Source: a virus
IMG/VR virus record: IMGVR_UViG_3300042922_000087
Span: 1-38,469 of that record
Length of the DNA: 38,469 nt
Reading direction: 5' to 3' (one strand)
Shown: piece after piece, positions 1,702 through 14,423 of the stretch
Position numbering within the stretch: position 1 is the first letter of the stretch
Layout of the letters: each line of letters begins with the position of its first letter
Program-made: the position numbers and the translations under genes
Notes under the pieces: model-generated
Seen by the model: the letters and a program-made list of their open reading frames with translations, nothing else
Database searches by the model: none
Told to the model about the DNA's origin: nothing

Positions 1702-1774
1702 GCGCTTCTAGCCCAATGGAAGAGGCAACGGATTTAAGTCCCGTTCAGTCTGAGTTCGAGTCTCAGGAGGCGCA
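1702..1774 (+). tRNA. tRNA-Leu(UAA), short variable loop
   Basis: Acceptor arm GCGCTTC/GAGGCGC is 7 bp with one G-U. T arm is CTGAG-TTCGAGT-CTCAG. Anticodon loop TTTAAGT gives UAA, with an A-C mismatch at 31-39. The variable region is only five bases, whereas bacterial tRNA-Leu is class II with a long variable arm. No CCA is encoded. The 3' acceptor strand contains the GGAGG that serves as ribosome site for the next gene. Confidence 0.75.
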
Positions 1775-1776
1775 CA

Positions 1777-1917
1777 ATGAAATGGCATAAACATAAATGG
1801 ACCAGAGCAAACGGTGATAACAGACCATTTTGTACTGTTTGCGGTAAGAAAAAAGACTGGTGGTATGATCCTAGGATCGGACACTTTGTAGCATACGGCG
1901 GAAGAATTAGCAAGTAA
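1777..1917 (+). CDS. Small basic protein with one CxxC (46 aa)
   Basis: A 46-residue, lysine- and tryptophan-rich protein starting MKWHKHKWTRAN, with a single zinc-knuckle-like pair (FCTVCGKKK). The start is 3 bases after the tRNA-Leu discriminator base, and the best ribosome site (GGAGG, 1766-1770) lies within the tRNA's 3' acceptor strand. It ends 8 bases before the primase gene. Nothing homologous is recognised; DNA or RNA binding is plausible from the charge and the CxxC. Confidence 0.7.
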   Translation: MKWHKHKWTRANGDNRPFCTVCGKKKDWWYDPRIGHFVAYGGRISK

Positions 1918-1925
1918 GGGGTAGA

Positions 1926-4148
1926 GTGGAAGCCAAGAAATTCTTCGAGGTAATTTTTGGGGACGGTGAAGGCGAGGCCGTCCTCGTTCTTCCTAACAGA
2001 GAGGGGAAGCCTACTAACGACTTCTGGTTCTCGTACCCAGAACAGCTTGAGGAAATGGCTGACTTTGTGTGGTCGAATGAGCACGCAGATGTATGGTTCA
2101 GCCCCGCACTGTTCCGTGAGCGCGACCGCCACAAGGAATATTCACAGCGCCTAGGAGTATTGGGCGCGGACGCTGACACATGCGAGCCAGATAACTTCCG
2201 CGTCTATCCTGACATTGTAATTGAGTCTAGCCCTGGACGTTTTCAGGTCTACTGGATTCCGTCAGACGTTGACGACTACGCACCCGAGGACGTAGCCAAG
2301 GTCAACCGCCGCATCGCACAGGTACACAAGCATCAGGGCTGTGACCCCTCGTACGTCAACCCGGCCAAGCTTATGCGCGTGCCGGGTACGTCGAACGGTA
2401 AGCACCCCGGCGCTATCGTGATCGTACAGAGCTACGATTTTACCTCACCGATTTCGGTGCAGGCAATGGACACTCTGTACCCTGAGTCTGAGGTAGCGGA
2501 CGCATACGAAGCCAGCATCGGTGATATGCCGGATGATCTGGAAGAGTTCATCGCGCAGAACCGAGCCAAGCTTCTCAACGGTCTGCCCAACAGTGCAGGT
2601 CTACGTGACCTAGTGTTCAAGGCTCCACACATGGAATCTCGTTCAGAAGCATTGTTCAGACTCATGTGTGAGCTTTATCGTCTTGGTCTGGACGACAAGG
2701 AAGTAATGGCTGTCGCTTGGGGAAGCCCGAGCAACAAGTTCAACGGCGAAGACCCGCGAGGACTCAAGGGACTGTGGGACACCGCACTTCTCAAGGCTAA
2801 GACAGCGGCTTTCGATCCTGACTACGAGTGGGATATCGAGACGGCTTACTACGATAACGACGAGCCAGCTCCACGCAAGGAACAGCAGTTTGTTAAGAAG
2901 ATTGACTTCCTGACAAATGAAGAGCAAGAATTAGTATCATCGATCCCTAACTTCATTGATGAGTGGGTGACCTGGGCAGGTACCAAGACGGACTCGCCCG
3001 CAGAGTATCACCGAGCAGCAGCTATGGCTCTGTTGTCGGCTGTGTATTCTGAGTTTGGTCACGCCACCCCGCAGTGGGGACCGATGAAACTTAACTTGTG
3101 GTTCATGGTGCTGGGTCGCTCGACCCTTGACCGTAAGTCTACGGCACGGTCGTACATGAACAAGGCATTCCGTGCCTTGAAGACTGAGGATTACAACTAC
3201 AGTATCGGTGACGACGTAACGCCGGGAGGTATCTCTCTGGCGCTTCACGACCGAGGCAACAAGGCAACGGTGTTCGACCGCGATGAGGTACAGGGTCTAT
3301 TCAAGGAACTTCTGCACCAAAGTTATATGTCCGGTGGACTCGAAGTCTTTACTAAGTTGTACGACGGCTGGTCCGGTGGTCGAGTTCGAGCATCTGGCGA
3401 GAAGAAAATTCAAGAGTCTGTTCCGGTTTCATTCATCATGTTCATGATGGGTATTCTCACGGAGTCTGCTGACGTTCTTACGGTGACAAACTTCCGATCA
3501 GGATTCCTTACACGATTCCTGTACGTGGTAGGACACCGCCCTGAGGGGTACGTTCCACCGCCCATCCAACAGAGCAAGGAAGAGGAAGACAAGTCCGATC
3601 CTGTGTTCGATGGAATGATGAGTCATCTGTCTCGTAACCGAGATTACTGGGAAATGTATGGAGGGGACGGCGACACCGTTCCCATCCGTGCCACTGACGA
3701 AGCATGGGCGCGCTACCAGAAGTTCGAAACCGACGTTAGAACGGCGGCTGGCAACACTCTGTATGCTGAGGTCATCGCTACCACGTCTGAGCGTACTACA
3801 CACAGCACGCTCAAGCTGGCGGCTCTCCTGGCCATGGATGATCGTTCAAAGCGTATCGAGCTAAAGCACATGTTGCAGGCTATCGGCTACGCGGGTGAGT
3901 GGATCACTAATGCTATGACAATGGCGACTATGGTTTCCGAGTCTGAGTGGCAGCGTGACGTGGACAAGCTGGAACAGTTCATAAACAGCAAGGGTGGCAT
4001 AGTGAGCTACGCAGTAGCCTATCGCCACTTCCAAGACAAGAGGCCATTCGAGTTCGAAGAAATGATCGCCGCGCTAGAGCAGCGCGGAGTTCTAACCCGA
4101 GAAAAGGATGGTTCACGATGGACATTGAAGGTGAGTTATGGCGACTGA
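1926..4148 (+). CDS. Primase-helicase (RepB-type primase + P-loop helicase)
   Basis: A 740-residue replication protein with two modules. The first 180 residues resemble RepB-type archaeo-eukaryotic primases: catalytic acidic cluster ADAD at 81-84, SSPGRFQVYW at 101-110, and NPAKLMRVPGTSNGK near 145-159. Residues 340-600 look like a DUF3987-type P-loop helicase, with a divergent Walker A GRSTLDRKST at 397-406 and Walker B VFDRDE at 449-454. A short C-terminal winged-helix-like tail follows. The start is a GTG at 1926 with AAGGGG six bases before it. It would prime and unwind DNA for the split PolA encoded downstream. The assignment is strong for a primase-helicase and weaker for exact family names. 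Confidence 0.85.
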   Translation: MEAKKFFEVIFGDGEGEAVLVLPNREGKPTNDFWFSYPEQLEEMADFVWSNEHADVWFSPALFRERDRHKEYSQRLGVLGADADTCEPDNFRVYPDIVIESSPGRFQVYWIPSDVDDYAPEDVAKVNRRIAQVHKHQGCDPSYVNPAKLMRVPGTSNGKHPGAIVIVQSYDFTSPISVQAMDTLYPESEVADAYEASIGDMPDDLEEFIAQNRAKLLNGLPNSAGLRDLVFKAPHMESRSEALFRLMCELYRLGLDDKEVMAVAWGSPSNKFNGEDPRGLKGLWDTALLKAKTAAFDPDYEWDIETAYYDNDEPAPRKEQQFVKKIDFLTNEEQELVSSIPNFIDEWVTWAGTKTDSPAEYHRAAAMALLSAVYSEFGHATPQWGPMKLNLWFMVLGRSTLDRKSTARSYMNKAFRALKTEDYNYSIGDDVTPGGISLALHDRGNKATVFDRDEVQGLFKELLHQSYMSGGLEVFTKLYDGWSGGRVRASGEKKIQESVPVSFIMFMMGILTESADVLTVTNFRSGFLTRFLYVVGHRPEGYVPPPIQQSKEEEDKSDPVFDGMMSHLSRNRDYWEMYGGDGDTVPIRATDEAWARYQKFETDVRTAAGNTLYAEVIATTSERTTHSTLKLAALLAMDDRSKRIELKHMLQAIGYAGEWITNAMTMATMVSESEWQRDVDKLEQFINSKGGIVSYAVAYRHFQDKRPFEFEEMIAALEQRGVLTREKDGSRWTLKVSYGD

Positions 4149-4317
4149 TATTTTTAAATTTGTGGTGAGGGACGAAGAAACCCGGCAGATAATTGCTGGG
4201 TTCACTACCTCAACTGCGGCAAATAGTTATGCCGGTGACCTGTACTTTAAGACAGGCAGAACTTATACGGTGGGACCAAATGACCGACAAAGCAGAAGCA
4301 CTAAGAGTAGCAACTGA
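4138..4317 (+). CDS. Small hypothetical protein (59 aa)
   Basis: Reads from ATG at 4138, inside the end of the primase-helicase gene, to TGA at 4315, overlapping the next gene by 38 bases in another frame. It begins MATDIFKFVVRDEETRQI, and the first 45 residues look like a compact alpha/beta fold. The tail (NDRQSRSTKSSN) is basic and may be constrained by the overlap. Function is unknown. Support is the fit between genes and a plausible amino-acid make-up. Confidence 0.55.
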   Translation: MATDIFKFVVRDEETRQIIAGFTTSTAANSYAGDLYFKTGRTYTVGPNDRQSRSTKSSN

Positions 4318-4663
4318 ATACAATGATAGAATCCGATTCGGATTGAAGGTCGATAAGTCGAGGGCCGCTGGGGAACTAGCGGCCTTTGGCTTATTCTCCT
4401 GGCTTGAGATTAGCATGATTCTGGATACCTCTGTAGATTTTGTTAAGAGGGCCGAGGGCATGCACGGAAATCTCTCACAGCCTCAGCGTGTCTGGAATAT
4501 CCACAGCCTGTCCGCGTTGTACCTAGTGGCTCTGAACTACCGCGACGGTAAGGTATCTACTGCACTTATCCGCAGGCTGGCAGAGAACAACAATAGCTTG
4601 CGAGCTATTTCACAGCTAACGGACATTCCGATTGAGAGATTGAGGGAAGTGATGAATGACTAG
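4280..4663 (+). CDS. Helical, possibly DNA-binding protein
   Basis: A 127-residue, mostly helical protein beginning MTDKAEALRVATEYN. Two stretches could be helix-turn-helix units: SWLEISMILDTSVDFVKRAEG and, at the C-terminus, LRAISQLTDIPIERLREV. The frame is open further upstream to a TTG at 4193, but ATG 4280 is preferred because the upstream part overlaps the 59-residue gene and lacks a ribosome site, while GGTGGGA lies just before 4280. The stop overlaps the polymerase start by 8 bases. A replication accessory or regulator role is inferred only. Confidence 0.65.
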   Translation: MTDKAEALRVATEYNDRIRFGLKVDKSRAAGELAAFGLFSWLEISMILDTSVDFVKRAEGMHGNLSQPQRVWNIHSLSALYLVALNYRDGKVSTALIRRLAENNNSLRAISQLTDIPIERLREVMND

Positions 4664-6995: not shown

Positions 6996-7008
6996 AGAGG
7001 AAGACACA

Positions 7009-7441: not shown

Positions 7442-7442
7442 C

Positions 7443-8226: not shown

Positions 8227-8255
8227 ATTCTAATGTATCTATTAACCTTTGTCAA
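8227..8255 (-). promoter_or_regulatory. Sigma70-type promoter for the minus-strand gene
   Basis: On the minus strand: TTGACA (8255-8250), 17 bases, TAGAAT (8232-8227). The ATG at 8220 follows after six bases, so transcription should begin at or next to the start codon. Its -35 box overlaps the -35 of the divergent plus-strand promoter. Confidence 0.7.
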
Positions 8256-8277
8256 GGCGCTGGAAATGTGATATACT
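8249..8277 (+). promoter_or_regulatory. Sigma70-type promoter facing the tRNA array
   Basis: TTGTCA (8249-8254), 17 bases, TATACT (8272-8277) with an extended -10 (TGA-TATACT). An ATG follows after seven bases (8285), giving a leaderless start. The -35 is shared with the divergent promoter through the sequence TTGTCAA. Confidence 0.75.
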
Positions 8278-8335: not shown

Positions 8336-8355
8336 CGCGCCCTGAAACCAGATCA

Positions 8356-8391
8356 GACCCGGCGCTCAAGACACTTGACACCGGGTTCTTT
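8356..8391 (+). terminator. Terminator-like hairpin ahead of tRNA-Ala
   Basis: ACCCGG (8357-8362) pairs with CCGGGT (8381-8386), with an inner stem TCAAG/CTTGA closed by ACA, followed by TCTTTGT. The layout fits an intrinsic terminator or attenuator. Its 3' arm contains the -35 box of the next promoter. Confidence 0.55.
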
Positions 8392-8403
8392 GTATGATAT
8401 GGT
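8375..8403 (+). promoter_or_regulatory. Promoter for the first tRNA run
   Basis: TTGACA (8375-8380), 17 bases, TATGGT (8398-8403), extended by TGA just before the -10. The start would be near 8410, about 12 bases upstream of tRNA-Ala. The -35 lies inside the terminator-like hairpin, so read-through and initiation could compete. Confidence 0.5.
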
Positions 8404-8421
8404 AGTTCTACAACTTGATAC

Positions 8422-8494
8422 GGGCCTGTAGCTCCAATGGTAGAGCAACGCTTTTGCAAGGCGAAGGTTCTCGGTTCAAATCCGAGTAGGTCCA
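8422..8494 (+). tRNA. tRNA-Ala(UGC)
   Basis: Acceptor GGGCCTG/TAGGTCC with the G3-U70 pair that marks alanine tRNAs. D arm GCTC/GAGC, anticodon loop TTTGCAA (UGC), T arm CTCGG-TTCAAAT-CCGAG, discriminator A. No CCA is encoded. First tRNA of the main array. Confidence 0.95.
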
Positions 8495-8742
8495 CAACAA
8501 GAGGGGGCACTCTCTTGGGGAATGGCGGAACGAACGTCGGTAGCAATAGCCGACAACGAAACGCACATGCGGAGTCACAATCTCAAGACATATCTGAGGG
8601 CAAGCTGCTGAGGATATGGGGGCGAGGACGGGTTTAGCGGCCTTGAACGTGATTTGCTTAGCGGCTAACGTATGGTCAGACAGTATTTATCAGCCAAATG
8701 ATTGCCTGTCTGTGTGGGTGGAGTCCCACTTCCCACTTTTAT
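8495..8742 (+). ncRNA. Folded inter-tRNA segment 1 (unrecognised)
   Basis: 248 bases without a credible gene, between tRNA-Ala and tRNA-Met. Several good hairpins are visible: AAGAGGG/CTCTCTT with a GGCA loop (8499-8516), CATATC/GATATG (8589-8618), CAGACAG/CTGTCTG (8677-8712) and GTGGG/CCCAC (8714-8729). The density of paired arms suggests a structured RNA cotranscribed with the tRNAs. A tmRNA was considered but no tag frame ending in the usual Ala-Ala was found. Identity is unknown. Confidence 0.4.
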
Positions 8743-8816
8743 GTCGGGGTGCAAGTAACGGTAACTGGCCAGCCTCATAAGCTGTGCGACTGAGGGTTCG
8801 ATTCCCTCCCCCGCCA
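8743..8816 (+). tRNA. tRNA-Met(CAU), imperfect acceptor and D arms
   Basis: T arm GAGGG-TTCGATT-CCCTC is clear. Anticodon loop CTCATAA gives CAU on a 4-bp stem. Acceptor GTCGGGG/CCCCGCC has one mismatch at 2-71, and the D stem is weak although the loop has GG. It could be elongator Met, initiator, or a lysidine-type Ile tRNA; the sequence does not decide. Confidence 0.6.
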
Positions 8817-8978
8817 CGGAATAACTCAACAGTGTTTAATCATGGCCGTCCAAAAAAGGTTAGCGAGGACGGCGGAAGCGGATGACAAACCAGTAACCTT
8901 GCGGTGCGAGCGTGTCGCTCAAACCAAGACCCACACTAGTAGACCATGCTAGGGTTGTAGCTGTTAGGTCATCCACCC
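8817..8978 (+). ncRNA. Folded inter-tRNA segment 2, tRNA-like outer stem
   Basis: 162 bases between tRNA-Met and tRNA-Pro. GCCGTCC/GGACGGC (8845-8873) forms a 7-bp hairpin. Then GGATGAC (8880-8886) pairs perfectly with GTCATCC (8968-8974) as a 7-bp outer stem followed by A, like an acceptor, around an inner GAGCG/CGCTC hairpin. There is no T loop or standard anticodon loop, so it is not an ordinary tRNA. A degenerate tRNA or an unknown RNA is possible. Confidence 0.4.
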
Positions 8979-9053
8979 CTGGGTGTAGCTCAGTTTGGTC
9001 AGAGTGTTTGCTTTGGAAGCTTAAAGTCGTAGGTTCGAATCCTGCCACCCAGA
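8979..9053 (+). tRNA. tRNA-Pro(UGG)
   Basis: Acceptor CTGGGTG/CACCCAG is perfect; D arm GCTC/GAGT; anticodon loop TTTGGAA (UGG) on a stem with two T-T mismatches; T arm GTAGG-TTCGAAT-CCTGC; discriminator A. No CCA is encoded. Confidence 0.85.
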
Positions 9054-9055
9054 CT

Positions 9056-9127
9056 GTGAACGTAGTTCAATGGTAGATAGCCTGAATGTGAGTCAGGAAG
9101 ATGCCGGTTCGAGTCCGGTCGTTCACC
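9056..9127 (+). tRNA. tRNA-His(GUG)
   Basis: Acceptor GTGAACG/CGTTCAC is perfect; anticodon stem CCTGA/TCAGG with loop ATGTGAG (GUG); T arm GCCGG-TTCGAGT-CCGGT; discriminator C, as expected for histidine. It starts two bases after tRNA-Pro. Confidence 0.93.
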
Positions 9128-9131
9128 CCAA

Positions 9132-9203
9132 GGCTGTATAGTGAAAAGGTCATCACACCTGTCTGTCTAACAGGTAGTCGGGGTTCGAGTCCCCGTACGG
9201 TCG
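9132..9203 (+). tRNA. tRNA-Asp(GUC), encoded CCA
   Basis: Acceptor GGCTGTA/TACGGTC with G-U pairs; anticodon stem CCTGT/ACAGG with loop CTGTCTA (GUC); T arm CGGGG-TTCGAGT-CCCCG; discriminator G. CCA follows at 9204-9206, one of only three tRNAs here with it encoded. Confidence 0.93.
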
Positions 9204-9207
9204 CCAA

Positions 9208-9278
9208 GCTCCCATAGTGTAATGGTAACATCGCTGATTCTCAGTCAGTGGTCAGGGGATCGAAACCCCTTGGGAGTA
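9208..9278 (+). tRNA. tRNA-Glu(CUC)
   Basis: Acceptor GCTCCCA/TGGGAGT; anticodon stem GCTGA/TCAGT with loop TTCTCAG (CUC); T arm AGGGG-ATCGAAA-CCCCT; discriminator A. It lies immediately behind tRNA-Asp. Confidence 0.92.
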
Positions 9279-9545
9279 CAGAGGAAGGAAGCGCTAGGCT
9301 ACCAACCTGCCAACAATGTATGACTCAGTAGCGTAAGTCCCTTGCGGGCGGTGAACAGAATAGTGACATGAGGTAAGGTGGAAGCCTAAGCGGGCCGGAT
9401 TCCGATGAGGGTTGGTTACCCTGGGCCAGCGCAAGGCTGAAATAACCTGAGGGCGGGGACCGTGCCGAGTAGCTGTGGTTGCTAATGCCAGGCGAAGCGG
9501 TATTAAATGTACCGATTGAGGATGCGTCACGGTACCCGCCTACAT
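9279..9545 (+). ncRNA. Folded inter-tRNA segment 3 (unrecognised)
   Basis: 267 bases between two tRNA-Glu genes with no supportable ORF. It is purine-rich, with multiple hairpins including AGGGT/ACCCT (9408-9422) and GTACCG/CGGTAC (9509-9535). Short GNRA- and GAAATAA-like single-stranded stretches recall structured RNAs, but no known class could be matched by eye; RNase P RNA and group I intron cores are not evident. Confidence 0.4.
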
Positions 9546-9617
9546 AGTCCTATAGTGTAAAGGTTAGCACGAGAGTTTTTCACACTCTTAGTTAGGGTTC
9601 AAGTCCCTATAGGATTA
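9546..9617 (+). tRNA. tRNA-Glu(UUC)
   Basis: Acceptor AGTCCTA/TAGGATT; D arm GTGT/GCAC; anticodon stem AGAGT/ACTCT with loop TTTTCAC (UUC); T arm TAGGG-TTCAAGT-CCCTA; discriminator A. Confidence 0.92.
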
Positions 9618-9618
9618 C

Positions 9619-9689
9619 GGCATCGACGGTAGGTTACTGGGCTAGCGCTGTAAACGCTTCGCACTTGGGTTCGAGTCCTAACGGTGTCA
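9619..9689 (+). tRNA. tRNA-Tyr(GUA), short variable loop
   Basis: Acceptor GGCATCG/CGGTGTC; anticodon loop CTGTAAA (GUA) on stem AGCG/CGCT; T arm TTGGG-TTCGAGT-CCTAA; discriminator A. The variable loop is five bases, although bacterial tRNA-Tyr is normally class II. Positions 8-9 are AC rather than UA. Confidence 0.8.
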
Positions 9690-9771
9690 CGCAAGGGCGG
9701 TTCGAAACGCACCTACCATGTGGCCCGCATGAATGTGATCCCCCGGACGCTGTTAAAGGGGAAGGGCACTT
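9690..9771 (+). other. Spacer between tRNA-Tyr and tRNA-Phe
   Basis: 82 bases with no gene. A TCCCC/GGGGA stem (around 9740-9761) and a GCG/CGC mini-hairpin around GGTTCGAAA are visible; the latter resembles a T loop out of context and may be a tRNA remnant. Confidence 0.3.
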
Positions 9772-9844
9772 GGCTTTCAAGCTCTAATGGTCTGAGCGTA
9801 GGTTTGAAAAACCTGAGGGTAGGGTTCGAGTCCCTGGATAGCCA
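9772..9844 (+). tRNA. tRNA-Phe(GAA)
   Basis: Acceptor GGCTTTC/GATAGCC with one mismatch; D arm GCTC/GAGC; anticodon stem TAGGT/ACCTG with loop TTGAAAA (GAA); T arm TAGGG-TTCGAGT-CCCTG; discriminator A. Confidence 0.93.
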
Positions 9845-9873
9845 CACAGAAAAACACAACAATAGGAGGAAAC

Positions 9874-10056: not shown

Positions 10057-10064
10057 TTTAATAC
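10054..10064 (+). repeat. AU-rich box abutting tRNA-Leu(CAA)
   Basis: TAATTTAATAC; its last base is directly before the 5' end of the tRNA at 10065, and its first TAA is the stop codon of the preceding gene. One of five similar boxes at RNA 5' ends in this array. Confidence 0.6.
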
Positions 10065-10137
10065 GCACCACTACGCCAACGGAAGAGCGTACCGCCTCAA
10101 CAGCGGAGGGTTCTGGGTTCGAATCCCAGGTGGTGTA
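10065..10137 (+). tRNA. tRNA-Leu(CAA), short variable loop
   Basis: Acceptor GCACCAC/GTGGTGT; anticodon loop CTCAACA (CAA) on stem CCGC/GCGG; T arm CTGGG-TTCGAAT-CCCAG; discriminator A. The variable loop is GGGTT, with no long arm, unlike standard bacterial tRNA-Leu. Confidence 0.85.
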
Positions 10138-10138
10138 C

Positions 10139-10211
10139 GGCTCGGTATCCCAACGGTAGAGGAAGCGGTCTTAGAAACCGTTCAGTGTGGGTTCGAATCC
10201 CACTCGGGCTA
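10139..10211 (+). tRNA. tRNA-Leu(UAG), short variable loop
   Basis: Acceptor GGCTCGG/TCGGGCT; anticodon stem GCGGT/ACCGT with loop CTTAGAA (UAG); T arm GTGGG-TTCGAAT-CCCAC; variable loop TCAGT; discriminator A. It is the third leucine tRNA lacking a long variable arm. Confidence 0.87.
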
Positions 10212-10214
10212 CGT

Positions 10215-10243
10215 TTGACACAACACAGGAAGTATGGTATACT
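10215..10243 (+). promoter_or_regulatory. Strong sigma70-type promoter inside the array
   Basis: TTGACA (10215-10220), 17 bases, TATACT (10238-10243) with extended -10 TGG. An ATG follows after seven bases (10251). It begins four bases after tRNA-Leu(UAG) and closely matches the promoter at 8249 around the -10 (TATACTaatacacATG and TATACTagtacacATG). Confidence 0.8.
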
Positions 10244-10250
10244 AGTACAC

Positions 10251-10313
10251 ATGTTCACAACGATCCAGTCGAAGCGCACCGGCAATAACGTCGGGAACTT
10301 TGTGCTGGGTTAA
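10251..10313 (+). CDS. Leaderless 20-residue micro-ORF
   Basis: ATG 10251 to TAA 10311 encodes MFTTIQSKRTGNNVGNFVLG. It starts at the expected transcription start and is followed by a strong terminator hairpin. The architecture equals the 8249-8391 module but the peptide is unrelated. It could be a leader peptide, a small functional peptide, or incidental coding in a small RNA. Confidence 0.4.
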   Translation: MFTTIQSKRTGNNVGNFVLG

Positions 10314-10337
10314 ATTCCTCCTTTCTGTGTTGATTAC

Positions 10338-10379
10338 AGAGGCCCGGTACCTTACAAAGGAACCGGGCCTCTAACATTT
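10338..10379 (+). terminator. Intrinsic terminator of the micro-ORF transcript
   Basis: AGAGGCCCGGT (10338-10348) pairs with ACCGGGCCTCT (10362-10372), an 11-bp perfect stem, followed by AACATTT. It closes the short promoter/micro-ORF unit just before tRNA-Ser; alternatively it is a stable 3' end of a small RNA. Confidence 0.65.
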
Positions 10380-10462
10380 GGAAGCTCCGACATTGGCGTG
10401 TTATACGGTCTTGAAAACCGGTAAGCCGCAAGGCAGTGTGGGTTCGACTCCCTCAGCTTCCG
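10380..10462 (+). tRNA. tRNA-Ser(UGA)
   Basis: Acceptor GGAAGCT/AGCTTCC is perfect; anticodon loop CTTGAAA (UGA); long variable arm with stem GCC/GGC; T loop TTCGACT; discriminator G. It is a normal class II serine tRNA, in contrast to the leucine tRNAs here. Confidence 0.93.
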
Positions 10463-10467
10463 CAGCA

Positions 10468-10478
10468 TAATTAAATAC
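10468..10478 (+). repeat. AU-rich box before the 10479 hairpin RNA
   Basis: TAATTAAATAC, the same element that abuts tRNA 5' ends elsewhere. Here it leads into a folded segment rather than a tRNA. Confidence 0.5.
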
Positions 10479-10557
10479 TTGGGGCACCACAAACGATTTC
10501 CCGAAGGGGGGAAGTCAGACGATGAGGCGAGTACCCATTCGTGTGGTGTCCCAACTA
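10479..10557 (+). ncRNA. Hairpin RNA candidate between the tRNA-Ser genes
   Basis: TGGGGCACCAC (10480-10490) pairs with GTGGTGTCCCA (10543-10553), an 11-bp outer stem with one G-U; inside are a TTCCC/GGGAA hairpin and a CGATGAGGCGAG loop. It is preceded by the AU-rich box that otherwise marks tRNA 5' ends, which suggests a processed RNA. The class is unknown. Confidence 0.45.
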
Positions 10558-10642
10558 GGAAGGTAGAACAGGGTTGGTGCCCTGGCCTGTTTGCTAAACA
10601 GATCGTACCGAGAGGTATGGAGTTCGACTCTCCCACTTTCCG
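10558..10642 (+). tRNA. tRNA-Ser(GCU)
   Basis: Acceptor GGAAGGT/ACTTTCC; anticodon loop TTGCTAA (GCU) on stem CTGT/ACAG; long variable arm GTACC/GGTAT; T loop TTCGACT; discriminator G. Confidence 0.9.
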
Positions 10643-10643
10643 C

Positions 10644-10714
10644 TGGCCTAAAGCATTATGGTGATGCACTTGACTCTTAATCTCGGGATCAGGGTTCGAT
10701 TCCCTGTGGGCCTA
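10644..10714 (+). tRNA. tRNA-Lys(CUU)
   Basis: Acceptor TGGCCTA/TGGGCCT with a mismatch at 1-72; D arm GCAT/ATGC; anticodon loop CTCTTAA (CUU) on a stem with two mismatches; T arm CAGGG-TTCGATT-CCCTG; discriminator A. Confidence 0.82.
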
Positions 10715-10715
10715 C

Positions 10716-10789
10716 GTGGTAGTAGTGTTAGTGGTATAGCACGTCAGTCTTCCAAACTGAAAGGCAGAGTTCGAGTCTCTGTTACCGCA
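10716..10789 (+). tRNA. tRNA-Gly(UCC)
   Basis: Acceptor GTGGTAG/TTACCGC; D arm GTGT/GCAC; anticodon stem TCAGT/ACTGA with loop CTTCCAA (UCC); T arm CAGAG-TTCGAGT-CTCTG. Confidence 0.93.
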
Positions 10790-10855
10790 CTCGTCCGTGT
10801 ACACGATATCGCTCTGGGACGCTAAGCTGAGCGGGCTGACAACCTACTGTCACAT
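10790..10855 (+). other. Spacer with palindrome between the tRNA-Gly genes
   Basis: 66 bases with no gene. CGTGTACACG (10796-10805) is a perfect 10-base palindrome, and GCTC/GAGC can form a short hairpin downstream. No regulator can be named. Confidence 0.3.
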
Positions 10856-10928
10856 GTGGTACTAGTGTTAGTGGTTAGCACAAGACGTTGCCAACGTTTT
10901 AGGGTGGGTTCGAGTCCCGCGTGCCGCA
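10856..10928 (+). tRNA. tRNA-Gly(GCC)
   Basis: Acceptor GTGGTAC/GTGCCGC; D arm GTGT/GCAC; anticodon stem AGACG/CGTTT with loop TTGCCAA (GCC); T arm GTGGG-TTCGAGT-CCCGC; discriminator A. The next gene's ATG begins two bases after its discriminator. Confidence 0.93.
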
Positions 10929-10929
10929 C

Positions 10930-11193: not shown

Positions 11194-11194
11194 C

Positions 11195-11266
11195 GCCGGT
11201 ATAGCTTAATGGGCAAAGCATGTGTCTTGTAAACATAAGTCGGGAGTTCGAATCTCCATTCCGGCA
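11195..11266 (+). tRNA. tRNA-Thr(UGU)
   Basis: Acceptor GCCGGTA/TTCCGGC with one mismatch; D arm GCTT/AAGC; anticodon stem TGTGT/ACATA with loop CTTGTAA (UGU); T loop TTCGAAT; discriminator A. Confidence 0.9.
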
Positions 11267-11337
11267 CGGTGAGGTAGGCTACTGGGTATGCCCCTCACAA
11301 GGGACTGAGACTAGACCCAGGCTAGTCTCACTCCTAC
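11267..11337 (+). ncRNA. Folded segment between tRNA-Thr and tRNA-Val
   Basis: 71 bases with two strong hairpins: GTGAGG/CCTCAC (11269-11298) and TGAGACTAG/CTAGTCTCA (11306-11330, 9 bp perfect, loop ACCCAGG). No ORF. It is a candidate small structured RNA or a processing element. Confidence 0.4.
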
Positions 11338-11406
11338 CCTCCTGTCGTCGGGTGCGGACGGCTCTCTTACACGGAGCCAGGCTAGGTTCGATTCCTAGTG
11401 GGAGGA
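11338..11406 (+). tRNA. tRNA-Val(UAC)
   Basis: Acceptor CCTCCTG/TGGGAGG; anticodon stem GCTCT/GGAGC with loop CTTACAC (UAC); T arm CTAGG-TTCGATT-CCTAG; discriminator A. D arm is GTC/GAC, slightly short, for a total of 69 bases. Confidence 0.87.
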
Positions 11407-11461
11407 CAGTGGGTGATGGTACGCGCCTTCCCTTATCTAAAAAGGTAAAAGCGGCCAGTAT

Positions 11462-11533
11462 TCTCACGTAGCTAAATGGTAAAGCGCTTGACTGTTAATC
11501 AGGTGATTGTTGGTTCGAATCCAGCCGTGAGAG
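11462..11533 (+). tRNA. tRNA-Asn(GUU)
   Basis: Acceptor TCTCACG/CGTGAGA is perfect; anticodon stem CTTGA/TCAGG with loop CTGTTAA (GUU); T arm GTTGG-TTCGAAT-CCAGC; discriminator G. The 55 bases before it (11407-11461) hold only a weak GCC/GGC stem. Confidence 0.93.
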
Positions 11534-11589
11534 CAATACGCGAAGAACTGCCAAGCACAGGCCCGGTAATGCGCCGGTAGCGTAGATTT

Positions 11590-11661
11590 GCCTTCGTAAG
11601 CTAAAGGATAAACTACGACGCTACGAACGTCATATTCTAGGTTCGAGTCCTAGCGGGGGCA
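11590..11661 (+). tRNA. tRNA-Arg(ACG), encoded CCA
   Basis: Acceptor GCCTTCG/CGGGGGC with G-U pairs; anticodon loop CTACGAA (ACG, needing A-to-I editing by the host to read CGU/CGC/CGA); T arm CTAGG-TTCGAGT-CCTAG; discriminator A; CCA at 11662-11664. The preceding 56 bases (11534-11589) contain only a CCGG/CCGG mini-hairpin. Confidence 0.88.
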
Positions 11662-11687
11662 CCACCAACACAGAAAGTAGGAGTAGA

Positions 11688-11897
11688 ATGAAGAGAATTA
11701 TCAGTGTAGTACTTGGTGCATCGTTGATCTTTGGTCTTGGAGCAGTGTCAGCAAGCAACGTGTTAAACACCCCCAAGCCTCAGGCACCGGCAGTTGTTAA
11801 GCAGACTCAGTTTTGCCAGACGTGTTTCTACACCTGGAACCCCAAAACTCAGTCCTACGTTCGGACTTGCTACCTAGTAGTTTGTCACGCAGTATAA
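11688..11897 (+). CDS. Small secreted Cys-containing protein (69 aa)
   Basis: 69 residues with a classical signal peptide: MKRI, a hydrophobic core ISVVLGASLIFGLGAVSA, and a possible cleavage after AVSA or VSAS. The mature part (about 46 residues) has a CQTC motif and two further Cys near the C-terminus (TCYLVVCHAV), suitable for disulphides outside the membrane. AGGAG at 11678-11682 precedes the ATG. It lies between tRNA-Arg and tRNA-Gln; the stop codon forms the start of an AU-rich box. An envelope-directed role such as exclusion or lysis timing is possible but not shown. Confidence 0.75.
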   Translation: MKRIISVVLGASLIFGLGAVSASNVLNTPKPQAPAVVKQTQFCQTCFYTWNPKTQSYVRTCYLVVCHAV

Positions 11898-11905
11898 TTC
11901 AATAA
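11895..11905 (+). repeat. AU-rich box abutting tRNA-Gln(CUG)
   Basis: TAATTCAATAA, directly before the 5' end of the tRNA at 11906 and overlapping the stop codon of the secreted-protein gene. Confidence 0.55.
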
Positions 11906-11977
11906 TCCCGGTTGGTGTAATCGGCAACACGACAGACTCTGAATCTGTAGTACGAGGATCGTAACCTTGGCTGGGAG
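11906..11977 (+). tRNA. tRNA-Gln(CUG)
   Basis: Acceptor TCCCGGT/GCTGGGA with wobble pairs; anticodon stem ACAGA/TCTGT with loop CTCTGAA (CUG); T arm CGAGG-ATCGTAA-CCTTG; discriminator G. Confidence 0.88.
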
Positions 11978-11981
11978 CTTT

Positions 11982-12054
11982 ACGCGGGTGGGTTGCTGGC
12001 ATCCCATTCTGACTTTGAATCAGAGCCACGCTGGTCCGATTCCAGCCCCGCGTG
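11982..12054 (+). tRNA. tRNA-Gln(UUG)
   Basis: Acceptor ACGCGGG/CCCGCGT is perfect; anticodon stem TCTGA/TCAGA with loop CTTTGAA (UUG); T arm GCTGG-TCCGATT-CCAGC; discriminator G. Confidence 0.93.
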
Positions 12055-12058
12055 CCGA

Positions 12059-12130
12059 GGGTGTATAGCTGAGATGGATTAGCTCTTGCCTTTTAAGCTT
12101 GAGAGGTGGGTTCGATACCTACTGCACCCA
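12059..12130 (+). tRNA. tRNA-Lys(UUU)
   Basis: Acceptor GGGTGTA/TGCACCC; D arm GCT/AGC; anticodon loop CTTTTAA (UUU) on a stem with two T-T mismatches; T arm GTGGG-TTCGATA-CCTAC; discriminator A. Confidence 0.87.
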
Positions 12131-12131
12131 C

Positions 12132-12141
12132 AATTTAATAC
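12132..12141 (+). repeat. AU-rich box abutting tRNA-Ile(UAU)
   Basis: AATTTAATAC fills the whole spacer between tRNA-Lys and the first base of tRNA-Ile at 12142. Here the box separates two tRNAs, so it is not just a by-product of a stop codon. Confidence 0.6.
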
Positions 12142-12215
12142 GCGGAGGAAGCACGCTGGTATGTGCAACTGTCTTATTAACAGCAGGTAGGCGAGTTCGA
12201 TTCTCCCCCTCCGTA
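12142..12215 (+). tRNA. tRNA-Ile(UAU)
   Basis: Acceptor GCGGAGG/CCTCCGT; D arm GCAC/GTGC; anticodon stem CTGT/ACAG with loop CTTATTA (UAU); T loop TTCGATT; discriminator A. UAU reads AUA directly, without the lysidine-modified CAU tRNA used by most bacteria. Confidence 0.87.
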
Positions 12216-12216
12216 C

Positions 12217-12287
12217 GGTGGACTGGCCGAGTGACTAGGTACAGGATTGCAACCCCTGGTAGGTGAGTTAGAATCTCACGTCCACTT
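12217..12287 (+). tRNA. tRNA-Cys(GCA)
   Basis: Acceptor GGTGGAC/GTCCACT; anticodon loop TTGCAAC (GCA) on CAGGA/CCCTG with A-C at 31-39; T arm GTGAG-TTAGAAT-CTCAC, where A replaces the usual C56; discriminator T, as expected for cysteine. Confidence 0.88.
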
Positions 12288-12312
12288 CCACTTGAACAGA
12301 TAGGAGTAGAAT

Positions 12313-12627
12313 ATGTCGTATAGCGAAAACATTGCATATCAGCCCGAGAAGTTTGGGCTTGAGTTTCATGGCTCGCTCGACCTTGAGGACGAGCCTTATC
12401 AGTTTTACATTGTAGGTGTTTGGGAAGGACCGGAGGGATTCTATATCTCTACGGACAGCGGGTGCTCGTGCCCTTCGCCGTGGGAAAACCACATGAGCAT
12501 GGAAGACCTTACAGGTCCGCTAACACGCGAGCAGGCTCACGAAGAGATTACCTCTCTTTGGAACAACTCTTATTACAAGGGTTCGCTACCAGAGCGTGAC
12601 CTAGAGCAGTTTCTAGCGAGCTTCTGA
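12313..12627 (+). CDS. Hypothetical protein in the tRNA array (104 aa)
   Basis: 104 residues, acidic, with an aromatic beta-rich first half (EPYQFYIVGVWEGPEGFYIS), a CSCPSPWE segment and an acidic helical C-terminal half (LTREQAHEEITSLWNN). TAGGAGT precedes the ATG. It sits between tRNA-Cys and tRNA-Arg, and an AU-rich box follows its stop directly. No family is recognised with confidence. Confidence 0.75.
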   Translation: MSYSENIAYQPEKFGLEFHGSLDLEDEPYQFYIVGVWEGPEGFYISTDSGCSCPSPWENHMSMEDLTGPLTREQAHEEITSLWNNSYYKGSLPERDLEQFLASF

Positions 12628-12638
12628 TAATTTAATAC
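12628..12638 (+). repeat. AU-rich box abutting tRNA-Arg(UCU)
   Basis: TAATTTAATAC; the last base is also the first base of tRNA-Arg. It follows the TGA of the preceding gene immediately. Confidence 0.6.
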
Positions 12639-12704
12639 CCCCTTGGAAGGATCACCACGGGTGTTCTAAGCCTTTAGGTCCGGGTTCGACTCCTGGCAGG
12701 GGGG
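12638..12704 (+). tRNA. tRNA-Arg(UCU), very short D arm, encoded CCA
   Basis: Acceptor CCCCCTT/CAGGGGG (six of seven pairs); anticodon loop GTTCTAA (UCU); T arm CCGGG-TTCGACT-CCTGG; discriminator G; CCA at 12705-12707. Only 13 bases lie between acceptor and anticodon stem instead of about 19, so the D arm is strongly reduced, giving 67 bases in total. Confidence 0.65.
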
Positions 12705-12708
12705 CCAT

Positions 12709-12782
12709 AGCTAAGACTCCAATTTGGTATAGGTACCGTTCTGATAAGACGGAAATACTGGGTTCGAATCCCAGCTTAGCTA
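12709..12782 (+). tRNA. tRNA-Ile(GAU)
   Basis: Acceptor AGCTAAG/CTTAGCT is perfect; anticodon stem CCGTT/GACGG with loop CTGATAA (GAU); T arm CTGGG-TTCGAAT-CCCAG; discriminator A. Last tRNA of the main array. Confidence 0.93.
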
Positions 12783-12792
12783 CAGGATTCTG

Positions 12793-12801
12793 TGGTAAAA
12801 T
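12793..12801 (+). promoter_or_regulatory. Candidate extended -10 promoter for the glutaredoxin gene
   Basis: TGG-TAAAAT at 12793-12801, within TGTGGTAAAAT, the same style as at 1660 (TGTGGTATCAT). No -35 box is recognisable. The start would lie near 12808, upstream of a long hairpin and the glutaredoxin gene. Confidence 0.4.
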
Positions 12802-12823
12802 AGAATAGATATAGCCCCACATA

Positions 12824-12863
12824 AGTAGCCCTGGTACGTGACTCGCTCCGTGCCGGGGCTACT
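12824..12863 (+). other. Long hairpin in the glutaredoxin leader
   Basis: AGTAGCCCTGGTACG (12824-12838) pairs with CGTGCCGGGGCTACT (12849-12863), 15 bp with two wobble pairs and a 10-base loop. It lies 27 bases before the GTG start and is not followed by a T tract, so a leader or stability structure is more likely than a terminator. Confidence 0.6.
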
Positions 12864-12889
12864 TCCATCTATAAGGAAGTTAACAAGTA

Positions 12890-13111
12890 GTGGTAAAAGT
12901 TTTCAGTAAACCAAATTGCAAGCAGTGCGATATGACCTACACGGTTCTAGACGCACGGGGCATTAGCTATGAAAGCACAGATGTAACAGAAGATGAGGAA
13001 GCCTACAAGTTCATCACAGAGGACTTAGGTTACATGCAAGCTCCCGTTGTCGTCAACGGGGATCAACATTGGTCCGGGTTCCGACCCGATCTGATCAATA
13101 ACATCAACTAA
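12890..13111 (+). CDS. nrdH: NrdH-like glutaredoxin
   Basis: 73 residues with the redox motif CKQC at residues 10-13 and the NrdH hallmarks LGYMQAPVV and HWSGFRPD. NrdH proteins deliver electrons to class Ib ribonucleotide reductase, so this one would help host or phage reductase to make dNTPs. The start is GTG 12890, with AAGGAAG 11 bases upstream. It is expressed behind the tRNA array and a long leader hairpin, and is followed by a terminator. No reductase gene is present in this window. Confidence 0.88.
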   Translation: MVKVFSKPNCKQCDMTYTVLDARGISYESTDVTEDEEAYKFITEDLGYMQAPVVVNGDQHWSGFRPDLINNIN

Positions 13112-13114
13112 GTT

Positions 13115-13138
13115 GAGCCGCCTACGGGCGGCTTTACT
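13115..13138 (+). terminator. Intrinsic terminator after glutaredoxin
   Basis: AGCCGCC (13116-13122) pairs with GGCGGCT (13127-13133) around a TACG tetraloop, then TTTACTT. A compact stem with a stable UNCG-type loop. The T tract overlaps the -35 of the next candidate promoter. Confidence 0.7.
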
Positions 13139-13161
13139 TCTGCTAGCACTCGTGCTAGACT
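13133..13161 (+). promoter_or_regulatory. Candidate promoter of the exonuclease gene
   Basis: TTTACT, 17 bases, TAGACT with extended -10 TGC. A CTAGCA/TGCTAG inverted repeat (13143-13158) overlaps the -10 and could be an operator. The ATG follows nine bases after the -10. Confidence 0.4.
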
Positions 13162-13170
13162 TGGAGCGCT

Positions 13171-14052
13171 ATGTATATTACTAGAGAACAAATCGAGAGT
13201 ACGGCGCATTTAAGTAGTCGCCAGGCCGCACGTCAGTTAGGTGTGGCTAAGACCTCCATCAACAAGTACCGTAAACAGTACGGCACGGAGCGTAGGATTG
13301 AACTACCAAATGCGCGGGTACTCATTATCGATATTGAGTCTAAGCCGGGTAAGTATTACTCGTGGGGACCGAAGGCCGACTGGCTCTCGCCCGACAAACT
13401 AATCGAACCCGGTGGAATGCTGTGCTTCGCCGCTAAGTGGTTAGGCGTAAACGAAACGCTGTTCTACAGCGAGTGGGAGGACGGCCTAGAAGGCATGGTC
13501 AGAGAGGCCCACAAGCTTCTCTCGCTGGCTGATATCGTCATCACCTACAACGGAGACAGGTACGACGTAAAGAGGCTCAACAACGAGTTCCTGCGGCTGC
13601 ACATGGCCCCACCACGACCGTACCGTAGCATCGACCTGTTCAAGACCAACAGAGCTAAGTTCGATCTGCCGTATAAAAAGCTGGACTACATCGCACAGGT
13701 TGTCGGTGTCGGACAGAAGGTCAAGCACGAGGGATTCGGACTGTGGATCGCTTGCATGGACAATGACCCCGAAGCTCAGGCCAAGATGCGAGAGTACAAC
13801 ATCGGTGACGTAGTTCTAACCGAGAGTCTGTACGTCAAGCTGTTGCCGTGGCTGTCCAACGTACCTCATATGGGTATGTTTGCAGTTGATGGTGGCCAGT
13901 GCCCCTACTGTGCCGGTGAGGTACAGGAAACAGGTCACACAACGCACACATATGTACAGGAATATGAACTGTTCCAGTGCGTGAACTGTGAGGGTTGGTC
14001 ACGAGGTACACAGCCTATTGGAGCAACACAGGAAACTAGGAGGATCGTATGA
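13171..14052 (+). CDS. DnaQ-like exonuclease with HTH and zinc ribbon
   Basis: 293 residues in three parts. Residues 1-42 form a helix-turn-helix (SSRQAARQLGVAKTSINKYR). Residues 48-230 are an RNase H-fold DEDD nuclease: IIDIES with D54/E56, TYNGDRYD with D132, and YNIGD with D213 as the third motif. Residues 240-275 are a zinc ribbon with C244/C247 and C270/C273. The GGAG before the ATG gives a start. The enzyme would degrade or trim DNA or RNA from a 3' end, targeted by its DNA-binding ends. The stop overlaps the next gene (ATGA). A proofreading role is less likely, since PolA has its own exonuclease. Confidence 0.82.
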   Translation: MYITREQIESTAHLSSRQAARQLGVAKTSINKYRKQYGTERRIELPNARVLIIDIESKPGKYYSWGPKADWLSPDKLIEPGGMLCFAAKWLGVNETLFYSEWEDGLEGMVREAHKLLSLADIVITYNGDRYDVKRLNNEFLRLHMAPPRPYRSIDLFKTNRAKFDLPYKKLDYIAQVVGVGQKVKHEGFGLWIACMDNDPEAQAKMREYNIGDVVLTESLYVKLLPWLSNVPHMGMFAVDGGQCPYCAGEVQETGHTTHTYVQEYELFQCVNCEGWSRGTQPIGATQETRRIV

Positions 14053-14234
14053 AGACTGCAAAGGATTTTGCGGAGCTTGCCAGCGAGGGACTTGAGGTTG
14101 CGTTTGAGTTCCTTGAAAAGGGCGAGGGAGACGAAGCTATCGTTACGTTGCTGAGTGGTATCCTTACCGGACAGGCTCAGATGCTACTTATGCTAGAGCG
14201 ATTGGTTGACAACCAGAAGCCCGCTGTGCTATAA
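14049..14234 (+). CDS. Small acidic helical protein (61 aa)
   Basis: 61 residues, almost fully helical (MKTAKDFAELASEGLEVAFE...). The ATG overlaps the exonuclease stop, so it is probably translationally coupled. A promoter for the downstream RNA lies in its last codons. The function is unknown; it may pair with the exonuclease. Confidence 0.7.
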   Translation: MKTAKDFAELASEGLEVAFEFLEKGEGDEAIVTLLSGILTGQAQMLLMLERLVDNQKPAVL

Positions 14235-14235
14235 T
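14206..14235 (+). promoter_or_regulatory. Promoter for the tRNA-Trp unit
   Basis: TTGACA (14206-14211), 18 bases, TATAAT (14230-14235), extended -10 TGC. It lies in the 3' end of the preceding gene and points to a 250-base transcript ending at the strong terminator at 14447, carrying a folded segment and tRNA-Trp. Confidence 0.65.
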
Positions 14236-14355
14236 AGTTAGTACAACAGTAAACGGTTTCGCCCTCGCGGCGTGAATCCACCGGTCAACTAAAAGGATTA
14301 CAGGCTGGCGAACCCAAACGCTACACCTGAGCATGTGTCGATAAACTGCTCACAT
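14236..14355 (+). ncRNA. Folded segment upstream of tRNA-Trp
   Basis: 120 bases with no gene. CGGT/ACCG (14254-14283) encloses a CGCC/GGCG stem, and TGAGCA/TGCTCA (14328-14352) forms a second hairpin. With its own promoter and terminator this is a good candidate for a small RNA or a processed leader. Confidence 0.4.
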
Positions 14356-14423
14356 ATCGCACGGTCTGGGACCAAGCGGGCCTCCAAAACCTGCTGTGCT
14401 GAGTTCGATTCTTAGGTGCGGTG
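14356..14423 (+). tRNA. tRNA-Trp(CCA anticodon), reduced D arm
   Basis: Acceptor ATCGCAC/GTGCGGT (7 pairs); anticodon loop CTCCAAA (CCA) on CGGGC/ACCTG with a 31-39 mismatch; T arm CTGAG-TTCGATT-CTTAG; discriminator G, normal for Trp. Only 14 bases lie between acceptor and anticodon stem, so the D arm is minimal (68 bases overall). It could be a degenerate tRNA. Confidence 0.6.

Follow-up and report, generated by a model that had tools for sequence, protein, structure and literature searches.

Conserved folded RNAs in the gaps of a phage tRNA array predicted to cover all 20 amino acids

The subject of this study is the linear IMG/VR virus record IMGVR_UViG_3300042922_000087, whose 38,469 bases were analysed entire (hereafter the window), and the array of transfer RNA (tRNA) genes that it carries. 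Two gaps of this array are filled by conserved folded RNAs: a manA-like RNA between tRNA-Ala and tRNA-Met, and a pseudoknotted RNA, here named MP RNA, between tRNA-Met and tRNA-Pro. Complete tRNA sets in phages and the presence of GOLLD RNA in tRNA arrays are already known. What is new is the conserved folded RNAs in the array gaps, and MP RNA appears to be an undescribed family common to phages of very different hosts. A sequence-only reading of the window had listed its tRNA genes, while structured RNAs between them were absent from its finding on the array. The two RNAs are as follows.

8497..8742, + strand: manA-like RNA, 1 nucleotide (nt) after tRNA-Ala and 0 nt before tRNA-Met (Rfam RF01745 over its full length; own model R2, covariation)
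8818..8978, + strand: MP RNA, pseudoknotted, filling the Met-Pro gap, without Rfam match (models R1 and R3, covariation)

MP RNA and its spread among phages

Searches of Rfam 15 returned no match at 8818-8978 at expectation values (E) up to 10. On eight further MP RNA loci, at E up to 1, the single match returned was a sub-threshold one to tmRNA_permuted (23.5 bits, E 0.88), which overlaps the edge of the copy in locus L125. MP RNA is described neither in Rfam 15 nor in the open-licence papers searched, though a description in subscription literature or under another name is possible. With blastn, the window's copy gave only chance matches among phages. Model R1 was built from the aligned Met-Pro gap sequences of three records, namely the window and two relatives, L034 (the array locus of G001, which at 61.5 kb is the longest close-relative record) and L037. 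Run on 81 sources (800 kb), it found MP RNA in the Thr-Val gap of Pumpernickel, Big4 and Zooman with 45-51 bits.

Pattern scans extended this set. The first gave 62 stretches, most of them chance, and R1 confirmed only L078 and L088, which are the records of L034 and L037; model R3, built from 19 sequences, added one weak match (L073, 21.9 bits) on the part of these stretches that it was run on. A stricter pattern gave 0 stretches. A third gave 21, two of them already known, and R1 confirmed 10 of the 19 new ones at E < 1e-3 (9/10 viral, 1/9 genomic), the nine rejected stretches serving as a negative control. L128, L130, L131 and L132 have an identical R1 score and look like one phage group. 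A blastn search with the L131 copy retrieved 55 annotated phage records (42 Microbacterium, 10 Vibrio, 2 Bacillus, 1 other); all seven that were checked are matched by R1 (E 1.5e-11 to 0.014), and none has an annotated feature under the match. Outside its training set, R3 matches A3Wally (87.9 bits), Cece (38.5 bits), G009 (64.9 bits) and G010 (61.7 bits), the last two in the Thr-Val gap. No R3 match was found in eight cyanophages, T4, KVP40 and SPO1, which make up 11 of the 22 records in that search. Every matching record holds exactly one MP match (19 records, 11 and 8 in two R3 searches).

MP RNA lies in the tRNA arrays of the window, L034, L037, A3Wally, Cece, Zooman, Big4, Pumpernickel, G009 and G010, and in those of the Vibrio phages Va1 and phiKT1024. 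It adjoins tRNA-Thr in L124 and follows a small tRNA group in L125. Elsewhere it follows a ribonucleotide reductase (RNR) gene (Eldridge), RNR-ThyX-holin genes (KZY1) or a gene named recombination directionality factor (Bachaco, BabyYoda), and no tRNA was found on the MP-bearing stretch of 11895-B1, L131, L123 or L127. In Eldridge, KZY1 and the 41-kb Microbacterium phages MP RNA lies near genes of nucleotide metabolism, which gives a hint at its partner but does not amount to evidence. Two other features of MP-bearing records were seen in passing. L126, a virus record of 46.9 kb and 35% GC, has at 911-1039 and about 1060-1185 tRNA-like genes that are interrupted near the anticodon by long inserts and are possibly intron-bearing. 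In L125 a 79-nt stretch (2306-2384) just upstream of MP RNA matches both ends of the transfer-messenger RNA model (57.8 bits) without the messenger part.

The predicted fold was examined in two ways. When 19 sequences are aligned to R1 (alignment A7), 93.9% of 409 cells pair against 60.5% in shuffled and 35-42% in slid alignments, figures that lean toward the model because A7 was fitted to its structure. In A7, 23 of the 27 pairs have two-sided changes. The closing helix, with 99.2% of its cells paired, shows such changes in each of its seven pairs. An unfitted check used 18 sequences in which the strands were cut by sequence anchors alone. From this count we had dropped L148 (a near-copy of L145), Zooman (a near-copy of Big4), and L128, L130 and L132 (score equal to that of L131). 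The closing helix was paired in 110 of 126 cells against 49% with partners shuffled, and the pseudoknot in 104 of 108 against 85%; for each, 0 of 2000 shuffles scored as high, figures that are not probabilities because shuffling leaves relatedness in place. One pseudoknot strand (L146) was wrongly picked by the anchor script, which lowers the observed count. The outer (last) pseudoknot pair occurs as T-A, A-T, G-C and C-G. A predicted closing helix and pseudoknot, both with covariation, and a shared core sequence thus mark MP RNA as the RNA family proposed here.

A manA-like RNA in the Ala-Met gap

The Rfam manA model RF01745 matches 8500-8739 over its full length (model 1-192) with 49.7 bits and E 2.4e-10. 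The RNA has the manA consensus structure over the full model but stays below the gathering score of 55.2, a score that the array copies in six Microbacterium phage loci also failed to reach. The match was found by cmscan, an RF01745 genome search with a fast first pass having missed it. The RNA lies between two tRNA genes and not in the 5' untranslated region (UTR) of a metabolic gene.

By blastn, seven Microbacterium phage records (six phages) have 70-76% DNA identity to it over 77-99% of its length, and all six phages carry the RNA inside a tRNA array. By contrast, the exonuclease, the one protein compared with these phages, has 37-39% identity. A pattern scan added L121 and L122, both in arrays, and L120, without tRNAs; a further candidate, L119, was a chance match. 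The array-borne form is thus present in nine records (the window, the six Microbacterium phages, L121 and L122), in the slots Ala-Met, Asp-Asp and Asp-Glu. In seven of these nine arrays its start lies 1-2 nt past the upstream tRNA and its end no more than 2 nt from the following one, the exceptions being Zooman, with 222 nt before it, and L121, with 50 nt after it. We set the ends of the seven sequences in model R2, which does not include L121 and L122, from the gap borders or the limits of the BLAST match, and conserved pairs reach within a few bases of both chosen ends. In the seven-sequence alignment 29 of 72 pairs have two-sided changes, and 97.6% of cells are paired, against 87.0% in shuffled alignments (0 of 500 as high) and 35-43% in slid ones. 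The annotation of two Microbacterium phage records places a "hypothetical protein" over the RNA (L116:8018-8191 and L118:3020-3166).

The content of the Ala-Met slot changes between relatives. In G001 it holds a GOLLD RNA (210.5 bits), in L036 a gap of 4 nt, and in L037 a sequence with a weak manA-like score (18.1 bits); window positions 1-15500 have no GOLLD (RF02032) match at E up to 10. All eight searchable records with an array-borne manA-like RNA (the window, A3Wally, Cece, Zooman, Big4, Pumpernickel, G009 and G010) also carry MP RNA, a co-occurrence that does not amount to eight independent events because related phages are included.

The tRNA set

ARAGORN predicts 23 tRNAs in the window at its default setting, and Rfam RF00005 predicts 21 at its gathering score. 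At the 90% threshold ARAGORN returns exactly 29 in the whole 38.5 kb, all at loci listed in the sequence-only reading, and the anticodons reproduce its isotype list of 29 genes for 20 amino acids. Ten Markov-resampled windows gave a mean of 0.8 and a maximum of 2 tRNAs at this threshold; at 80% such controls give 21.7, which makes 90% the useful limit. A script requiring the T loop motif, a perfect T stem and a perfect acceptor stem found 18 sites, 17 in the array plus tRNA-Leu (TAA), and 0 in 30 random windows. The prediction of a phage with a complete amino-acid set, as judged by anticodon, is therefore upheld. That such a set is rare in a phage is a fair statement, although it is not unique, complete sets being reported for XacN1, S-CRM01 and S-CBWM1. 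As the sequence-only reading also remarked, many anticodons start with U (U34 in 13 of 29). By the wobble rules, however, any compact decoding set needs U34 anticodons, and the number is what one would expect of it.

The dense array proper comprises 27 co-directional genes on one strand (8422-12783), because tRNA-Leu (TAA) lies 6.6 kb upstream and tRNA-Trp 1.6 kb downstream. With its tRNA genes packed on one strand, in a record that also encodes phage portal, tail and protease proteins, the locus qualifies as a phage tRNA array. All genes below are on the + strand.

1702..1775, +: tRNA-Leu (TAA), detached, upstream of the primase gene; 5-nt variable loop (ARAGORN, Rfam)
8422..8495, +: tRNA-Ala (TGC) (ARAGORN, Rfam)
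8743..8817, +: tRNA-Met (CAT) (ARAGORN, Rfam)
8979..9054, +: tRNA-Pro (TGG) (ARAGORN, Rfam)
9056..9130, +: tRNA-His (GTG) (ARAGORN, Rfam)
9132..9206, +: tRNA-Asp (GTC) (ARAGORN, Rfam)
9208..9279, +: tRNA-Glu (CTC) (ARAGORN, Rfam)
9546..9618, +: tRNA-Glu (TTC) (ARAGORN, Rfam)
9619..9690, +: tRNA-Tyr (GTA), short variable loop (ARAGORN 90%; same slot in L037, G001)
9772..9845, +: tRNA-Phe (GAA) (ARAGORN, Rfam)
10065..10138, +: tRNA-Leu (CAA), short variable loop (ARAGORN, Rfam)
10139..10212, +: tRNA-Leu (TAG), short variable loop; 82-84 nt genes in L034, L036, L037 (ARAGORN, Rfam)
10380..10463, +: tRNA-Ser (TGA) (ARAGORN relaxed; same slot in L034, L036, L037)
10558..10643, +: tRNA-Ser (GCT) (ARAGORN relaxed, anticodon unresolved; GCT from script fit; near-identical gene in G001)
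10644..10715, +: tRNA-Lys (CTT) (ARAGORN, Rfam)
10716..10790, +: tRNA-Gly (TCC) (ARAGORN, Rfam)
10856..10929, +: tRNA-Gly (GCC) (ARAGORN, Rfam)
11195..11267, +: tRNA-Thr (TGT) (ARAGORN, Rfam)
11338..11407, +: tRNA-Val (TAC), short D arm as in G001 (ARAGORN)
11462..11534, +: tRNA-Asn (GTT) (ARAGORN, Rfam)
11590..11664, +: tRNA-Arg (ACG) (ARAGORN, Rfam)
11906..11978, +: tRNA-Gln (CTG) (ARAGORN, Rfam)
11982..12056, +: tRNA-Gln (TTG) (ARAGORN)
12059..12131, +: tRNA-Lys (TTT) (ARAGORN, Rfam)
12142..12216, +: tRNA-Ile (TAT), unusual U37 (Rfam 34.4 bits; ARAGORN relaxed)
12217..12290, +: tRNA-Cys (GCA) (ARAGORN, Rfam)
12639..12706, +: tRNA-Arg (TCT; ARAGORN reads CTA), reduced D arm (ARAGORN 90%, relatives)
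12709..12783, +: tRNA-Ile (GAT) (ARAGORN, Rfam)
14356..14427, +: tRNA-Trp (CCA), collapsed D arm (ARAGORN 90%, 14349-14424; canonical Trp at the same place in G001)

Six of these genes (Tyr, Ser-TGA, Ser-GCT, Ile-TAT, Arg-TCT and Trp) are missed by default ARAGORN. The sequence-only reading had staked the complete set on the acceptance of Trp, Met and Tyr by tRNA prediction; Met is accepted (39.9 bits), while Tyr and Trp are rejected by the programs at their defaults. In the weak genes pairing is nevertheless complete or nearly so in both the acceptor and the T stem by script fit, except that Trp was assessed by eye since the script took a shifted frame for it; by eye it has a seven-pair acceptor stem, a five-pair T arm, a CCA anticodon, G73 and a collapsed D arm. 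ARAGORN at 90% labels one Arg gene "Pyl (cta)", and we prefer the TCT register because of the same-slot genes in L036 (5/5 stem pairs, by eye) and L076 (called Arg-TCT). Relatives back the weak genes further: Ser-TGA is present in L034, L036 and L037, Tyr in L037, and a canonical Trp (48.7 bits) in L034, at the same place after the exonuclease gene. L076 carries Ser-GCT, Ile-TAT and Arg-TCT, and L034 carries Ser-GCT and Arg-TCT by sequence.

Some of these tRNAs have unusual shapes. A long variable arm is the norm for bacterial Leu and Tyr tRNAs, whereas the three Leu genes (1702-1775, 10065-10138, 10139-10212) and the Tyr gene (9619-9690) have short, 5-nt variable loops. Long tRNAs occur elsewhere, with His of 86-87 nt in Cece and L121, Met of 90 nt in Cece and Val of 84 nt in L121. 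Arm class and anticodon thus seem to be uncoupled in these arrays. Position 37 of a tRNA is nearly always a purine, and the Ile-TAT gene (12142-12216, loop CTTATTA) has U there.

The array as a whole is conserved in G001, whose primase is 78% identical to that of the window and which keeps all 20 amino acids in the same tRNA order. On its array locus ARAGORN counts 21 tRNAs by default, 25 relaxed and 26 at 90% (counts only); its Tyr, Asn, Ser-GCT and Lys-TTT stand at the expected places in the ARAGORN 80% list, and its Arg-TCT was placed by eye.

Promoter-like sites, leaders and other gaps

The array region contains promoter-like sites, leaders and hairpins, all on the + strand.

8249..8277, +: sigma-70-like promoter TTGTCA-17-TATACT upstream of the array (consensus match only)
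8375..8403, +: sigma-70-like promoter TTGACA-17-TATGGT just before tRNA-Ala (consensus match only)
9280..9545, +: Glu-Glu gap, 266 nt (stability equal to shuffles, z 0.05)
10215..10243, +: promoter TTGACA-17-TATACT inside the array (consensus match only)
10251..10379, +: conserved leader before tRNA-Ser, a 20-codon open reading frame (ORF), then a 10-bp hairpin (by eye)
10464..10557, +: Ser-Ser gap with a long hairpin (z -4.75, folding against shuffles)
14206..14235, +: promoter TTGACA-18-TATAAT (12/12) for the tRNA-Trp unit (consensus match only)
14447..14493, +: near-perfect long hairpin, then a T-run, likely terminator of the Trp unit (read from sequence; folds as a long hairpin)

Eleven promoter-like sites were observed where 6.2 were expected, including 12/12 and 11/12 matches, and such sites precede Ala, Ser-TGA and Trp; the terminator hairpin was not among the sites of this promoter scan. 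The leader before tRNA-Ser is 90% identical to that of G001, and the region 10213-10379 folds with z -7.2 against shuffles. Both 10215-10379 and 8249-8420 show a promoter, a short ORF (20 and 16 codons, by eye) and a strong hairpin before tRNAs, an arrangement that looks like leader-peptide attenuation of the array. The Ser-Ser gap of G001 holds a hairpin too, of different sequence (by eye). For the Glu-Glu gap no homolog was found, and its stability does not exceed that of shuffles.

Source of the record

The record is probably a fragment, and probably comes from an actinobacteriophage. It encodes a Sak4-like protein, primase, parts of DNA polymerase A and an exonuclease, together with leftward portal, protease and tail genes. 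The polymerase extends over two ORFs (4656-6995; 468 and 267 amino acids) that match successive parts of one family. In protein comparisons the primase is 35% identical to that of Arthrobacter phage Molivia, and the exonuclease 39% to that of Microbacterium phage Cece. An actinobacterial host is likely, since the best phage protein relatives are actinobacteriophages. Megablast of window positions 1-20000 against phages gave no match, and the tail protein as query found no relatives among the viral contigs or genomes searched.

Discussion

We favour the view, with a fair measure of confidence, that the locus is a stable-RNA operon whose array replaces host tRNAs and releases trans-acting spacer RNAs through tRNA processing. 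From the structures and spread of the spacer RNAs we infer their expression, release and function as follows. The array would be transcribed as long precursors from the sigma-70-type promoters, with Trp transcribed from its own promoter and followed by the terminator-like hairpin. Host RNase P and 3' tRNA nucleases would cut at the tRNA ends and release mature tRNAs, and the same cuts would free, with defined ends, the spacer RNAs that lie exactly between tRNAs. Such release fits the packing of two unrelated RNAs between tRNA ends, in other slots in other phages. The phage tRNAs would then stand in for host tRNAs lost to depletion or cleavage in the course of infection, and the spacer RNAs may act in trans, perhaps on translation or nucleotide machinery.

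Several observations weigh against this view. G002, a 62% relative (locus L032), has only two tRNAs and MP RNA was not found in it, and G003 (locus L036) has a tRNA array with neither the manA-like RNA nor MP RNA. Hence neither RNA is indispensable, and the array itself can be missing from a record, as in G002, although the records of G001 and G002 may both be fragments. Folded by itself, MP RNA has no striking stability (z -1.7 against shuffles). It often lies outside arrays (the L131 group, Bachaco, BabyYoda, Eldridge, KZY1 and 11895-B1), so tRNA-processing enzymes cannot account for its release in general. L120 carries a manA-like RNA (86 bits) and no tRNA. Classic manA RNAs of P-SSM2 and P-SSM4 (182-184 bits) lie outside tRNA arrays, with one tRNA match in P-SSM2 and none in P-SSM4. 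The proposition that manA is always an array RNA was rejected on eight cyanophage records, and the array habit belongs to the actinophage manA subgroup.

As to the purpose of the tRNAs, the sequence-only reading held that they offset a mismatch between the A/U-ending codons of the phage and a GC-rich host, and codon compensation is called the most widely accepted view of phage tRNAs (PMC10264068). Some heavily used codons (AAG, CAG) are indeed matched exactly by a tRNA. However, in the 32 predicted genes of the window (9,676 codons) the GC content at third codon positions is 0.554, so the phage is not A/U-ending. Its rarest codons are served, Leu-TTA (18/694), Ile-ATA (26/497) and Lys-AAA (43/393) each having a tRNA of its own, whereas CTT, the commonest Leu codon (201/694), has no exactly matching tRNA. 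CGG, the least-used CGN codon (20/468 Arg), is the only sense codon left without a reader under generous wobble rules. Nor does compensation predict 20-amino-acid completeness in two phages. The codon argument is therefore not supported, and we regard compensation as improbable; the codon pattern fits replacement of the host tRNA pool better, and escape from host tRNA nucleases is among the roles now proposed for phage tRNAs (PMC10264068). The weak genes (Trp, Tyr, Arg-TCT, Ile-TAT) could also be pseudogenes of a decaying relic, given the six failures under default ARAGORN, the lost D arm of Trp and the two tRNAs of G002. The pairing of their acceptor and T stems, and the order and completeness conserved in G001, make this very improbable in our judgement.

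The spacer RNAs, for their part, might act in cis, regulating the array or a neighbouring gene in the manner of riboswitches or as processing elements. A compact pseudoknot around an invariant core is a typical riboswitch trait, and by eye an ORF follows MP RNA at a short distance on the same strand in L125 and L131. In addition, manA is typed as cis-regulatory in Rfam and has been described in potential 5' UTRs (PMC2864571). Against this, slots and downstream genes vary between phages, and in Bachaco, BabyYoda and KZY1 the next gene after MP RNA is on the opposite strand, both of which argue for action in trans and not as a 5' leader; we consider control in cis rather unlikely. That the spacers are selfish mobile RNA elements landing in insertion-tolerant tRNA arrays would explain why the Ala-Met slot is occupied by a manA-like RNA in the window and by GOLLD in G001 yet is nearly empty in L036, and why MP RNA occurs in different slots and outside arrays. 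Yet MP RNA is single-copy in all 19 matching records, the slot is kept within each phage group, and no mobility gene was recognised beside the RNAs in the window, so we give this little credence.

The closest known counterparts are the tRNA arrays of phages and mycobacteria that contain GOLLD (PMC6582537; nanocages, PMC12286853), likewise dense arrays interrupted by a large structured RNA. The relative G001 has GOLLD between Ala and Met, where the window, without a GOLLD match, holds the manA-like RNA, and an Rfam-unmatched second RNA fills the next gap. With manA (RF01745) the window RNA shares the alignment over 1-192, at E 2e-11 in a second search, and the conserved 3' domain; it differs in its score below gathering, its place between tRNA genes and its membership of an actinophage subgroup. 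In having tRNAs for all 20 amino acids, or many tRNAs, the window resembles XacN1 (complete set, 56 tRNAs, 385 kb), the cyanophages S-CRM01 and S-CBWM1 (complete sets; PMC9964418) and mycobacteriophage cluster C1 (33 tRNAs on average; PMC10264068). The genomes of S-CRM01 and S-CBWM1 measure 139-179 kb, whereas the window, probably a fragment, covers 38 kb and its longest close-relative record 61.5 kb. The Microbacterium phages A3Wally, Cece, Zooman, Big4 and Pumpernickel (genomes of 186-195 kb) have a similar isotype order and the same two RNAs, in other slots than the window; there the RNAs are unannotated, apart from the two manA-like copies under "hypothetical protein".

Taken together, these results give about an even chance to a broader proposition: MP RNA would be a new class of structured, trans-acting, single-copy phage RNA (phages of Actinobacteria, Vibrio, Bacillus and others), and tRNA arrays would be "RNA islands" that load interchangeable GOLLD, manA-like and MP RNAs, freed by tRNA processing and aiding the takeover of host translation or nucleotide supply. 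MP RNA, absent from Rfam 15, is present but unannotated in cultured Microbacterium, Vibrio and Bacillus phages, which offers a testable laboratory phage-host system for the question of what ornate phage RNAs do. The array-borne copies also suggest that manA, classed as cis-regulatory, can be a free-standing RNA.

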